Positions 3,348-44,378 of a DNA stretch of 64,000 bases are shown piece after piece. The DNA comes from Sutcliffiella horikoshii (GTDB lineage Bacteria; Bacillota; Bacilli; Bacillales; Bacillaceae_I). Made by a program: the position numbers and the translations under genes. The DNA lies in assembly GCF_002157855.1 (NCBI RefSeq), contig NZ_CP020880.1, positions 930,001 through 994,000 on the forward strand. The letters run 5' to 3'. Below the pieces are notes generated by a model that was given only the letters and a program-made list of their open reading frames with translations, ran no database searches and was not told where the DNA came from. How positions within the stretch are numbered: the stretch's first letter is position 1; the number at the start of each line of letters is the position of its first letter.

Positions 3348-3607
3348 GAATCAAGACACGAATTGTTCCATTGAAAGGAAAAACGGTAAGAGAGAGAGCC
3401 TCTCTACGCCCGAAAAGTTGAAATGAAAGAGAAAACGGTAACAGAGAGGCCATCTCAAGACCCGAAGCATTGCTATGAAAGGGAAAACGGTAACAGAGAG
3501 GCCTTCTCAAGCCTCGAAGCATCGCTATGTAAGCAAGAACGGTAACAGAGAGGCCATCTCAAGACCCGAAAAGCTCAAATGTAAGTCAAAACGGTAACAG
3601 AAGGAGG
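3348..3607 (+). repeat. 52-bp tandem repeat array (about five units)
   Basis: The core AACGGTAACAGAGAGGCC recurs with its first base at 3382, 3434, 3486, 3538 and 3590, an exact 52-bp period, with a partial unit before the first core. Units carry substitutions but no length change. Within units a short dyad around GAGAGGCCATCTC is visible; the first unit has a longer AGAGAG/CTCTCT version. The array lies between a metalloprotease gene and a small membrane protein gene, and its last unit supplies sequence just upstream of that gene's ribosome site. No convincing reading frame crosses it. Confidence 0.9.
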
Positions 3608-6001: not shown

Positions 6002-6764
6002 ATGAACACCAAGAAGAGATTCAGTTTCCGCAAAGCAATAAAATATATATCAGTATCATTGGTAAGTTTGGTAGTTCTGTGGATTGCGTTTCATCAAATA
6101 ATGGTTTTTTTCGAAAAGAACAAGTATCAAGCTACTGGACAACTGGTAGAAGTGGATGGTAACAATATGCATGTTCATGTAGAAGGGGAGGGACCTAAAA
6201 CTATCCTTCTACTTACTGGATTAGGGACGTCAGCGCGAGTGCTGGATTTTGAGCCGCTTAGAAGAAGTGGAGTCCATTGTCGGGATTGATCCAACACTTC
6301 CTGCTGCGGTTGATTATTTTGATGTACCTGTTCCTACCATGCCAGGCTTCCTTAGGGCTGTAGGTCCGAGTGGTATTGCAAGGATAGTGGTAGCGGGAAA
6401 TGAGGAGGATTTTTTACCACTGTCAGCAAAAGGGACATACTCCACGGAAAATCTTGAGTTAACAAAAACTTTAACTGTCTGGAATGGCTACAATAAAAAT
6501 ATCATCATGGAAGCAAATGAGATTAGTAATAATATCGCTAAAACGATTAACATGTCTTTTCCGGCCGATATACCTGTAATGATTTTTACACCGAAGGAAG
6601 AAAAGACAAACCCTGCCGGGAAATCTACCATCACCTTTTATAAAGAACAATTAGAGAATGTAGAGAAAAATAAAATTGTTCCACTCGAAGGTCATCATTA
6701 TTTACATTGGACAAATGCAGAAGAGATGAGTAAGCAAGTTGGGGAATTTATTAGCGAAAGTTAA
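6002..6764 (+). pseudogene. Alpha/beta hydrolase with internal deletion and frame shift
   Basis: Residues from 6002 give an N-terminal membrane helix and the start of an alpha/beta hydrolase fold (VEVDGNNMHVHVEGEGPKT then LLLTGLGTSARVLDFEPL, the oxyanion-hole region). The reading then shifts. The other frame, open to 6764, continues with VESIVGIDPTLPAAVDYFD, which in this family lies after the catalytic serine elbow, and ends with a plausible catalytic histidine region (PLEGHHYLHWTNAEE). About 70-80 codons carrying the GxSxG nucleophile are missing at the junction near 6255-6275. The gene is therefore almost certainly inactive. Confidence 0.75.
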
Positions 6765-7378: not shown

Positions 7379-7424
7379 AGAGGCATTTGAAAAGCAAAGT
7401 GATACAGAGAGTTTAATAAATTCG

Positions 7425-7551
7425 TGAAGGTAAATCGATTGATTCCAATGTGAGAGCAATTGCTGATGGATCAATTAATACTGTTGATACAAGCTTTTGG
7501 GATACGTTAACTTTCCAGACCACAAGACAAGGTGAGGAAAGCGATGAATAA
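7425..7551 (+). pseudogene. Possible C-terminal gene remnant
   Basis: An open stretch after an in-frame TAA reads IREGKSIDSNVRAIADG then SINTVDTSFWDTLTFQTTRQ and GEESDE before a TAA at 7549-7551. It has no start codon with a ribosome site but ends directly before a strong terminator. This is what would be left if the 5' part of a gene were deleted. The family is not recognised. Confidence 0.35.
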
Positions 7552-7558
7552 ACAAAGG

Positions 7559-7595
7559 AAAAGCTCGGGGCGGTATCCGAGCTTTTTTTTTTTTG
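7559..7595 (+). terminator. Rho-independent terminator
   Basis: AAAGCTCGG and CCGAGCTTT pair around GGCGGTAT and are followed by about ten further T residues. Confidence 0.9.
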
Positions 7596-7605
7596 ATTTT
7601 GACCA

Positions 7606-8021
7606 ATGAAGACTTGAGTTTCAAAACTTTTGGGTGACAGGAGTCTTCATAATGGTAATGAAGACCGGAGTTCCAAAATTTTAGGGTGACACGCGTCTTC
7701 ATAATGGTAATGAAGACCGGAGTTCCAAAATTTTAGGGTGACAGGCGTCTTCATAATGGTGATGAAGACCGGAGTTCCAAAATTTTAGGGTGACAGGCGT
7801 CTTCATAATGGTGATGAAGACCGGAGTTCCAAAATTTTAGGGTGACAGGCGTCTTCATAATGGTAATGAAGACCTGAGCACCAATGTTTTTGAGTAACAG
7901 AAGTCTTCATAGGGCTTATGAAGACCGGAGTTCCAAAATTTTTAGGCTGTAGAGGTCTTCATCAAGGTCATGAAGACGTTAGTGCTAAGATTACCTGGTG
8001 ACAGAAGTCTTCACCAATCAC
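7606..8021 (+). repeat. 52-bp tandem hairpin array (eight units)
   Basis: ATGAAGAC begins at 7606, 7658, 7710, 7762, 7814, 7866, 7918 and 7970, an exact 52-bp period over eight units. At each junction GTCTTCAT and ATGAAGAC form a perfect 8-bp inverted repeat around a 7-nt loop, so the array is a ladder of identical hairpins. The stem is strictly conserved, while the loop (AATGGTA, AATGGTG, AGGGCTT, CAAGGTC) and parts of the spacer vary. It occupies the space between two genes and stops at the 3' end of the anti-sigma gene. Confidence 0.95.
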
Positions 8022-8770
8022 AACCCCGCAGATAAATGAATCTCCCCTTCAGGCAATTCATTCCCACTCTGAGGTTCCAACGTTATCGCAATGGTATCCC
8101 AATCTTCCAAAGCAGTCTGTTCGATGTTATGGAACACATATCCTTTACCTTGATTATCAATAGTAAAGTCGCCAGCCGGTATTGGTGAACCATCCTTCAA
8201 CAGCCAAACCTGATACACTTCGTTTCCACTAAGCTCAGGTAAGTCCTGCGTTTGGATCATGACAGATAGTGCCTGCTCTTGTTGGAAAAGTGCTGCAAAC
8301 CCGCTGCCGGCAGCATCTGATGGCTGCAATGTTACTACGTTATCAGGTTGTTTCAGTTCCTCAGCAGCTGACTCAGCTCCTTCCTCGTTTTGCAACATTA
8401 AGTAGCCGTTTCCAATCAATGAAAGCAATAGCGATGCGGCAAGTAATGTGGTTAGCCAAGGTTTCCTAGAAGCTGTAGTTTTATTAAAGGGTTCATCAAC
8501 GACTTCCTTTTTAGATGCTATAGGTGTAACTAAAACATTCTCTGAATTAACATCTTCAGCAAATACATTATTCAAAATTCGCTTCTTCATTTCTGGTGGG
8601 GGTGAGGCCTGCTCTGACACAAGGGCAACATCTCCTAACAGATCTTGAAGTTCCATTAATTCTTCCTGACATTCGGGACAGGTGGCTAAGTGCTGTTCGA
8701 ATTCTTCTCTCTCTGTTTGTGTTAGGTGACCATTGAAATAGTCCAACACTAACTCACATTTCTGACTCAT
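8018..8770 (-). CDS. Anti-sigma factor with zinc-finger and RskA-like domain
   Basis: A 250-residue anti-sigma factor. The N-terminus has the ZAS zinc motif H27-x3-C31-x2-C34 (HLATCPEC) plus an early Cys5. A membrane helix lies around residues 103-126. The extracytoplasmic C-terminus (EVYQVWLLKDGSPIPAGDF...) resembles the RskA domain of anti-sigma-K factors. It should bind and hold the ECF sigma factor encoded just upstream until a signal triggers release. Its ATG overlaps the sigma gene's stop codon as ATGA, which suggests translational coupling. Confidence 0.88.
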   Translation of the reverse strand: MSQKCELVLDYFNGHLTQTEREEFEQHLATCPECQEELMELQDLLGDVALVSEQASPPPEMKKRILNNVFAEDVNSENVLVTPIASKKEVVDEPFNKTTASRKPWLTTLLAASLLLSLIGNGYLMLQNEEGAESAAEELKQPDNVVTLQPSDAAGSGFAALFQQEQALSVMIQTQDLPELSGNEVYQVWLLKDGSPIPAGDFTIDNQGKGYVFHNIEQTALEDWDTIAITLEPQSGNELPEGEIHLSAGL

Positions 8771-9321
8771 ATACTCCCCCTCCTATCTGCAAGCAACGGT
8801 TTCAGTTTTTTCAGCGCCAGCCGTATCCTTCCCTTTACAGTCCCAAGCGGTATGCCTGTCAAATCCGCTATTTTCTGCTGGGTATAGCCTTTAAAATACA
8901 TGTAATGAACCATCTTCTTTTGGTCATCAGATAAGGTGGAGACCGCCTCTCTGATGACATTTTGCTCTTCTTTCCACTCTGTCTCTTTTTCGGTGGAGTC
9001 GTTAGATTGCAGAAATGGTTCAACATCTTCTATCGGGGCACTTTGTGTTCGTTGCTGCTTACGAATAATATCCAAGGCTTTATTACGGGCGATGGTAAAC
9101 AGCCATGATCGAAACTTCCCTTTTGACGCGTCATAGATTCCTGTTCCCTGCCAAATTTTAATAAAGACATCCTGCATCGCTTCTTCGGCAATGTCGTGGT
9201 CATTTGTTATTTTCAATAAAAAAGAATACAAGATCTTTTCGTACCTGTCGTACAGTTCTTCCAGAGCGGTTTTATCTTTTTTCCTAATCCGCTCATACAG
9301 AAGAGAGTCCTTATTCTGCAT
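8767..9321 (-). CDS. ECF-type sigma-70 family RNA polymerase sigma factor
   Basis: A 184-residue sigma factor with region 2 (ALEELYDRYEKILYSFLLKITND, then DIAEEAMQDVFIKIWQ) and region 4 (MVHYMYFKGYTQQKIADLTG, then IPLGTVKGRIRLALKKL). Length and domain content are those of the RpoE/SigK-like ECF class. A GGAG site lies seven bases before the ATG. It forms a two-gene operon with its anti-sigma partner. The target genes cannot be read from this window. Confidence 0.92.
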   Translation of the reverse strand: MQNKDSLLYERIRKKDKTALEELYDRYEKILYSFLLKITNDHDIAEEAMQDVFIKIWQGTGIYDASKGKFRSWLFTIARNKALDIIRKQQRTQSAPIEDVEPFLQSNDSTEKETEWKEEQNVIREAVSTLSDDQKKMVHYMYFKGYTQQKIADLTGIPLGTVKGRIRLALKKLKPLLADRRGSI

Positions 9322-30257: not shown

Positions 30258-30376
30258 TAAATCGGCCGATAATTCAAGGTTATCGGGCGGAAATTTTGGG
30301 GAATCGGGCGAAAATTTAAATTTACGGTCGATTATTGCGATTATCGGGCGATTTACAGGTGCAATCGGGCGATTCG
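30258..30376 (+). repeat. Array of about 21-bp repeats with TCGGGCG core
   Basis: The CGG of the core TCGGGCG, or a near copy, recurs at 30263, 30284, 30305, 30325, 30345 and 30366, spacings of 20-21 bp. The segments between are AT-rich and variable. The same core, in the opposite orientation, forms a second array at 44249-44378. The gap from 30129 to 30593 otherwise holds only a hairpin and leader sequence; no gene was seen in it. Confidence 0.85.
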
Positions 30377-44076: not shown

Positions 44077-44248
44077 TCGAAACCCTCCTAAGAATATGCG
44101 ATAGACATTAGGTACATACGTTTGTTGACCCTTTATGTCTTCTTGAATAGGTTAACCGGAGAAGAGGAGGGTGATGTGAGGGAGATGTTGGAGAGGAAGC
44201 GTTGGTCAGAATATTGGTAGCTGTCCAGGATGTTGTTTTTTTTGCAAA

Positions 44249-44378
44249 TCGCCCGTTTATTTCTATTATCGCCCGTAATTTTAAATTTTCGCCCGATTCC
44301 TTCAAAAAGTCGCCCGTAAATCTCAATTATCGCCCGTAAAATCGAAAAATCGCCCGATTATGCTCAGATATCGCCCGA
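44249..44378 (-). repeat. Array of 20-21-bp repeats with TCGCCCG core
   Basis: The core TCGCCCG starts at 44249, 44269, 44289, 44310, 44330, 44350 and 44371 on the plus strand, seven units with spacings of 20 or 21 bp. Segments between the cores are AT-rich and not conserved. It is the reverse-complement counterpart of the array at 30258-30376 and lies between yfhD and yfhE. Nothing else is seen in 44077-44425. Confidence 0.9.

Follow-up and report, generated by a model that had tools for sequence, protein, structure and literature searches.

The ladder of inverted repeats that lies behind an anti-sigma factor gene of Sutcliffiella horikoshii is, in a reading that we hold with about even confidence, one of a number of dispersed, REPIN-like palindromic DNA elements that are set at a spacing of five helical turns and are probably read by a putative factor. 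The ladder was found in a window of 64,000 nucleotides, by which we mean the whole stretch of DNA that was analyzed, and it was followed through its own genome, its genus, and the order Bacillales.

Anatomy of the ladder and of its unit

The ladder consists of eight 45-bp inverted repeats of the form ATGAAGAC-N29-GTCTTCAT and seven 7-bp linkers (window 7606-8014). Its ATGAAGAC arms start at positions 7606, 7658, 7710, 7762, 7814, 7866, 7918, and 7970; every step is exactly 52 bp, which bears out the strict period noticed in an earlier sequence-only reading. The units, to which no strand is assigned, span 7606-7650, 7658-7702, 7710-7754, 7762-7806, 7814-7858, 7866-7910, 7918-7962, and 7970-8014, and the last of them ends in GTCTTCAC, an arm with one mismatch. 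Between 7643 and 7977 there are seven exact junctions GTCTTCAT-N7-ATGAAGAC, likewise without strand, whose linkers lie at 7651-7657, 7703-7709, 7755-7761, 7807-7813, 7859-7865, 7911-7917, and 7963-7969. The earlier reading had counted eight hairpins with a 7-nt loop and had let the ladder run to 8021. The number eight holds for the 45-bp units, but exact junctions number seven, and the last unit ends at 8014; an end at 8021 includes the anti-sigma stop codon.

That stop codon (8018-8020, minus strand) is 3 bp from the array. It ends the gene of an anti-sigma factor (RskA_C, zf-HC2; 8018-8770, minus strand), which lies behind the gene of its partner, an ECF sigma factor (8767-9321, minus strand), so the ladder does adjoin the 3' end of an anti-sigma gene as first described. 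A hairpin recognized by eye, AAGCTCGG...CCGAGCTT with a T run on the plus strand (7561-7594), is read as the putative terminator that would follow the array in the anti-sigma transcript. Folding of the array as single-stranded DNA gives a z of -7.7, and RNA folding of 7560-8021 on the minus strand, with the terminator, gives a z of -11.7. A known RNA family was rejected, given that Rfam returned no match in the window at the gathering threshold, all matches at E<=10 staying below the gathering score. Before the terminator, window 7420-7551 resembles by eye the DNA beyond the terminator of relatives (L225, L229, and L233); it has no long ORF here and, by eye, is perhaps a gene remnant. Judging by the translation, window 6002-6764 may hold a frameshifted alpha/beta-hydrolase-like gene, which is spread over two overlapping ORFs of different frame.

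Arrays from many loci point to the unit. The 120 loci L054-L173 were all used for array ends, gene orientation and terminators, GC-skew polarity, and arm spacing and ORF overlap, and 80 of them for the pairing of 73 bodies, the comparison of purine and coding strands, the ORF background, and wobble counts by gene direction. Among 132 arrays with both edges visible, the first arm is ATGAAGAC in 90 (42 otherwise) and the last arm is GTCTTCAT in 93 (39 otherwise), about 30% of array ends being out of unit phase. Complete 45-bp units are thus the usual make-up of an array; this indicates an inverted repeat around a 29-bp body as the unit, unlike the hairpin with a 7-bp loop of the earlier reading. 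Exact arms that face each other at a distance of 0-20 bp are 7 bp apart in 72 of 75 own-genome cases and in 478 of 480 cases from the 120 loci, which were fetched by a pattern demanding a 52-bp pair and are therefore biased in spacing. The 29-bp body is somewhat looser than the 7-bp linker, with a length of 28 or 30 bp in 20 of 509 cases from the same 120 loci. The step between neighboring junctions is 52 bp in 67 of 69 cases at own-genome loci, which were picked by a single junction and supplemented by two arrays from random stretches.

Arms and bodies were compared between species at three orthologous loci. Modal arm identity is 0.94 at the anti-sigma locus, 0.97 at malY, and 0.91-0.94 at glcF, against 0.73, 0.74, and 0.65, respectively, for the bodies; units were recognized with up to three mismatches per arm, which slightly favors the arms. 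The body is exactly 29 bp long in 108 of the 114 units recognized at these loci (search range 28-30). With arms at 0.91-0.97 and bodies at 0.65-0.74, the earlier proposal of constraint on the stem and its spacing is upheld, and loops and spacers are confirmed to vary more than stems. Neither outcome that the earlier reading had named as refuting was seen: stems do not decay as fast as spacers, and further copies run to hundreds of sites within the genus, with some in other genera. Mere recent duplication is excluded as an explanation of the ladder.

Beyond the 8-bp core, positions 9-11 are paired in 0.58, 0.44, and 0.48 of 73 non-redundant bodies, compared with 0.36, 0.31, and 0.27 expected. 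In a test on 85 arrays that took in all loci collected by then, ignored kinship, and included eight non-canonical arrays picked for a 7-bp loop, these three pairs exceeded shuffles with z values of 6.0, 4.2, and 4.1; pairs inward of position 11 showed no excess. Slid registers gave z values between -4.7 and 4.0, with register -2 reaching up to 4.0, so that covariation at pairs 9-11 is support and not proof. Changes in the arms of ordinary arrays are mostly single, uncompensated mismatches, which argues for constraint on the arm sequence in addition to pairing. Linkers are identical at 4.9 of 7 positions within an array and at 2.1 of 7 between different arrays, and, by eye, degradation appears strongest in edge units. 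There is no 7-bp target-site duplication: flanking 7-mers match the nearest linker at 2.6 of 7 positions, against 2.1 of 7 for the linkers of different arrays.

Unit number differs between species at orthologous sites. Ten orthologues of the anti-sigma locus were aligned (G011 and a partial match, G009, were left out); the motif AGCTCGG follows the stop codon in all 10, and in 8 of them the array stands after the stop codon and ahead of the terminator, inside the transcription unit. Unit number, which the sequence-only reading had proposed to compare, ranges from 0 to 8 between species: none in G010 and G013, one in G003, and 2, 4, 5, 7, or 8 in the others. No array stands behind the anti-sigma stop in G001 or in G015 (Bacillus tianshenii DSM 25879). 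At malY, the array lies beyond the terminator as judged by eye, 28 to 60 bp from the stop codon among six species. At glcF, where one of 15 orthologues (L261) is cut by a contig end and was excluded, species differ in having an array of the ATGAAGAC type, arrays of other stem types, or no array. A three-gene tree places G010 (14 sites) and G013 (3 sites) beside G012 (Bacillus sp. RO1, 198 sites) and G005 (S. horikoshii CH28_1T, 179 sites), with support of 98 and 100. On the simplest reading, the G010/G013 lineage lost most of the ATGAAGAC stem family; it retains 52-bp arrays of other families.

Spread and period of the arrays

The ladder is not isolated. A search of the whole genome for the junction motif, as the earlier reading had proposed, found 93 exact GTCTTCAT-N7-ATGAAGAC sites and none for the reversed control pattern; exact 45-bp units number 103. 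Among the matches listed, all array positions fall at or below 2.84 Mb, with most of the second replichore outside this range. Within Sutcliffiella, 13 of 16 genomes have junction sites, 3 to 198 each. A sample of the order showed a patchy distribution, with exact tandem pairs in 18 of 397 genomes and 5 of 132 genera; among the matches listed, named genomes with such pairs include members of Neobacillus, Mesobacillus, Ureibacillus, Lysinibacillus, Halalkalibacter, and Metabacillus. The ATGAAGAC arm recurs across genera, at loci that were themselves found by ATGAAGAC. Like REP and REPIN sequences, the arrays are dispersed, high in copy number, and extragenic: none of 121 overlaps an ORF of at least 150 aa by more than 30 bp, and 18 touch an ORF of at least 80 aa. 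A coding repeat was rejected because 52 is not a multiple of 3. A phage or plasmid origin was also rejected; viral_contigs contained no exact tandem match to the array, and BLAST against plasmids gave no array match, in a search where masking may hide repeats.

The period is common to arrays found without reference to sequence. In 1.889 Mb of stretches chosen regardless of repeats, 38 of 50 non-coding tandem arrays with a period of at least 30 bp have a period of 52 bp, and 2 have one of 53 bp; draft-genome stretches in this sample often start at contig ends, where repeats gather, so that array densities from the drafts are overestimates. Six genomes (the own genome, G000, with G002, G004, G011, G016, and G017) were sampled inside one long chromosome record (about 1.1 Mb, with a few record-start stretches and small contigs included) and yielded 11 non-coding arrays of period 51-53; in this sample, G011 and G017 had none. 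Three period-52 arrays were excluded from the 1.889-Mb sample as coding. At L197, L312, and L318, arrays lie inside ORFs of at least 150 aa that nearly coincide with the array and may be made by the repeat itself.

Among 40 arrays of period 51-53, 17 have a stem that was matched by at most 2 of 100 shuffles, and the best loop is 7 nt long in 12 of these 17. Grouped by eye, 52-bp arrays belong to several stem families, namely ATGAAGAC, ATGACGAC, CTATTGGACA or ATAGA, CGGTA-N2-AGAGAG, and others. Arrays with other arms are still palindromic, as in CTCTTCAT/ATGAAGAG, TCCCATAG/CTATGGGA, TCCAATAG/CTATTGGA, and, in the 1.889-Mb sample, GTCGTCATA/TATGACGAC; some others pair imperfectly. B-DNA has about 10.4 bp per turn, and 52 bp correspond to about five turns; we infer helical phasing from the number 52 alone.

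Further tandem arrays were seen alongside these. The window holds a second 52-bp array of other sequence (AACGGTAACAGAGAGG...CCCGAA) at 3372-3601, and similar arrays occur in G010 and G013 (L308, L312, and L316). A 53-bp family, GGGGTCAACAGAG...TTTGGTAACCCC, is present at L181:1799-2089 and at L304 and has also been struck by an IS256-type element. Separate short tandem arrays with periods of 20-21 bp (and 41-42 bp), near two and four helical turns, occur in 9 of 10 genomes examined; instances include window 44248-44356 and 30260-30316 as well as L175, L177, L182, L209, L217, L218, and L219.

Genes, replication, and insertion sequences around the arrays

The gene context is codirectional for 81 of 121 arrays, convergent for 30, and divergent for 10; the background of ORFs, taken from a smaller locus set, is 282 codirectional, 69 convergent, and 77 divergent. 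Four of the ten divergent arrays (L008, L016, L020, and L022) adjoin an inserted IS. Across 141 gene-to-array relations, a terminator precedes the array in 83 and lies only after it in 10; none was detected in 48, where readthrough is therefore possible. The action on mRNA that had been suggested may thus hold at the anti-sigma locus, with the array before the terminator in 8 of 10 orthologues, but it is not supported as a general role. A role in mRNA only fits this locus better than the family, for which it is unlikely. The link to the anti-sigma gene looks incidental, since the same arrays follow many unrelated genes. Among codirectional arrays with a clear bias, 44 of 55 have their purine-rich body strand as the coding strand. 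Counted by array, arm transitions do not favor G-U pairs in the sense transcript (26 versus 25), and counted by unit they tend the opposite way (41 versus 71). Sorted by purine strand, wobble counts are 60 versus 84 overall, driven by a single GTCCTCAT variant in Sutcliffiella and RO1 loci (12 versus 42) and opposite in sense in Mesobacillus (12 versus 6); we do not take them as evidence for either strand.

The own genome has its GC-skew switch between 1.90 and 2.10 Mb, and of its 25 array pieces, all at or below 2.84 Mb, 24 have the purine-rich strand as leading strand; mean leading-strand purine content of intergenic DNA is 0.53 (169 regions). Turned by replichore, most of these 25 pieces share one polar, purine-rich body consensus, to which the ladder itself (7606-8014), L006, and one array of L018 fit poorly. 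In G004 (Bacillus horikoshii FJAT-14233), 20 of 20 arrays are oriented with replication, one of them inside the switch zone. Local GC skew, applied only to arrays with clear bias and skew, gave agreement with replication in 57 of 59 arrays at Sutcliffiella and RO1 loci (some of them from G004), 15 of 17 in a mixed group, 4 of 4 in Lysinibacillus, and 2 of 2 in Ureibacillus. Neobacillus (4 of 8), Mesobacillus (5 of 9), an A. macyae MAG (5 of 9), and B. tianshenii (1 of 3) did not show such orientation, the last being a member of the same genus given that NCBI places tianshenii in Sutcliffiella; as a general rule, orientation with replication was rejected on these grounds. Of 24 clear arrays that lie between convergent genes in mixed taxa, 19 have a polarity in line with local GC skew.

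Two insertion sequences of the own genome are associated with arrays. All eight copies of an IS256-type element (415 aa, Transposase_mut) sit in or beside 52- or 53-bp arrays, and they strike arrays of different sequence (L298-L305, L016, L020, and L181); 8-bp duplications such as CGATGAAG and AACAGAGA were seen by eye at its insertions. An IS3-type element (L292-L297) has four of six copies in or beside such arrays, and all six of its flanks end in TGAA. The own genome has only one Y1_Tnp gene (L174, 4.006 Mb). The 3.3-kb locus around it contains neither ATGAAGAC nor GTCTTCAT, and the palindrome AGGGGTCAGACCCCT lies upstream of it. A RAYT linked to the arrays was rejected for the own genome, its sole Y1 gene standing beside another palindrome, and no trans-acting factor for the arrays was identified. 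A motif like AGGGGTCAGACCCCT, AAGGGGTCTGACCC, is repeated at L194:5942-6041.

Readings of the arrays and comparison with known systems

In the reading that we prefer, a unit would comprise 8 strongly conserved base pairs per arm, about 3 covarying base pairs, and an unpaired body, and units placed head to tail with a 7-bp linker would produce the 52-bp repeat of about five B-DNA turns. Constraint would act on them mainly as DNA, through arm sequence and geometry, and not as part of one mRNA. A sequence-selective factor may read the arrays as duplex or hairpin and would need the units on one face of the helix. Recombination or slippage between units would lengthen and shorten the arrays, and a putative enzyme may have helped them, as REPIN-like, non-autonomous elements, to reach new sites; the sole basis for enzyme-driven dispersal is that the arrays are dispersed, homologous, and variably present.

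It seems unlikely to us that the arrays are instead mRNA elements, that is, hairpin ladders of 3' untranslated regions that would make decay slower, stop 3' exonucleases, or serve as the target of an RNA-binding protein. Strong RNA folding at the ladder (z of -11.7) and its place between stop codon and terminator in 8 of 10 orthologues would suit such a role, as would the position of arrays behind genes (81 codirectional, 30 convergent, and 10 divergent of 121), the coincidence of purine-rich and coding strands in 44 of 55 codirectional arrays, and the 48 of 141 relations with no terminator detected on either side. Yet a terminator comes before the array in 83 of 141 relations and only after it in 10, sense-strand G-U bias is missing, the window has no Rfam match at the gathering threshold, arrays between convergent genes keep their GC-skew polarity (19 of 24), and a spacing of exactly 52 nt has no obvious reason in RNA. 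We give similarly little credence to neutral satellite DNA, in which functionless duplications would be homogenized by unequal exchange while template-switch correction, a mutational process acting on imperfect palindromes, would keep the arms paired. Period 52, often with a 7-bp linker, recurs in unrelated stems and several genera, which speaks against it, as do the recurrence of the ATGAAGAC arm across genera (at loci found by ATGAAGAC), replication polarity, and array ends that are mostly in unit phase. Length changes are also rare in the 29-bp bodies (108 of 114 unchanged), whereas the distance from malY stop to array varies from 28 to 60 bp. Neutral satellite DNA would, for its part, account for units that are alike within an array (linkers 4.9 versus 2.1 of 7), edge units that look most degraded by eye, unit numbers that vary between species down to none, and a ATGAAGAC family that can be lost (14 sites in G010 and 3 in G013 versus 179 and 198 in relatives).

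Least probable in our view is a recombination site. The core site of a tyrosine recombinase has inverted arms around a 7-bp overlap region, and 11-bp inverted arms with a 7-bp center would resemble it, with a recombinase that expands and shrinks the arrays. The covarying stem ends at 11 bp, exact arms facing each other stand 7 bp apart (72 of 75 cases in the own genome, 478 of 480 elsewhere) and the body length is somewhat looser, linkers are alike within arrays and different between them, and unit number is labile, all of which such a site would explain. Most arrays, however, end in body phase, so that their outermost arms have no partner across a 7-bp center; a single-unit locus exists (G003), although one complete core site or more would be expected to survive the action of a recombinase; and no recombinase gene was linked to the arrays.

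Beyond the preferred reading of REPIN-like elements, we put forward a broader one tentatively, with somewhat less than even confidence. The 52-bp register may be a sequence-independent rule, by which unrelated palindromic families in Bacillales are built to five turns, often with a 7-bp linker, as one class of elements made or read by an undescribed machinery that would measure helical phase and, in Sutcliffiella, the direction of replication. In the Bacillales arrays, the sequence changes and the 52-bp unit stays through several stem families, and a geometry that is kept while the sequence changes points to a factor able to sense the shape or phase of DNA. Unit counts of 0, 1, 2, 4, 5, 7, and 8 at orthologous loci, together with near relatives that have 3-198 sites of one family and still keep other families, make a builder or reader directly testable. 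The 52-bp arrays are also a target for an IS256-type element.

Proteobacteria are well known to carry intergenic palindromic repeats, whose spread is ascribed to a domesticated transposase. We found no description of 52-bp arrays in the literature covered by our search, which lay outside most subscription papers and all preprints. As regularly spaced palindromic repeats, the arrays are like CRISPR, but their spacers are alike within an array and not unique, the arrays are many per genome and scattered, and none of four neighboring proteins scanned is a Cas protein. Unlike MITEs, they have no 7-bp target-site duplication. Bcr1, Bant-1, Bhal-1, and Bhal-2 are stem-loop repeats of 72-167 bp in Bacillus, and the word "tandem" is absent from the main text on these families (PMC2267715). 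The arrays share with them the nature of stem-loop repeats in Bacillus relatives and, going by the listed sizes and that wording, would differ from them, with identity to Bhal-1 still possible.

Parallels are also offered by the REP and BIME sequences of the GTAG and CGTC superfamilies, which are high-copy extragenic palindromes, partly in tandem (PMC3733652; PMC2817692). The arrays differ from these in their fixed 52-bp register, their Bacillales host, and the absence of a GTAG or CGTC tag from the consensus of own array pieces as judged by eye. An insertion sequence sits in the 52-bp palindrome arrays just as ISPpu9 sits in REPs (PMC8450116). REPINs of Pseudomonas fluorescens are intergenic inverted pairs that may form hairpins in single-stranded DNA or mRNA (PMC3116915). 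The arrays likewise have conserved inverted arms around a variable spacer and may form a hairpin, but unlike REPINs they have no associated RAYT in the own genome. Since that family is defined in part by an associated RAYT and a GTAG tag, and neither is present there, we describe the arrays as resembling REPINs and do not call them members. P. fluorescens genomes are reported to have several types of REP sequence each, some in ordered tandem arrays that are forward in one part of the genome and reverse in another, most units being single and spacings being 71-184 bp (PMC3116915). The ordered tandem REP arrays of P. fluorescens are the closest precedent (PMC3116915); in comparison with them, tandem arrays of 45-bp units at 52 bp are the usual form here, and their period is common to unrelated stems.
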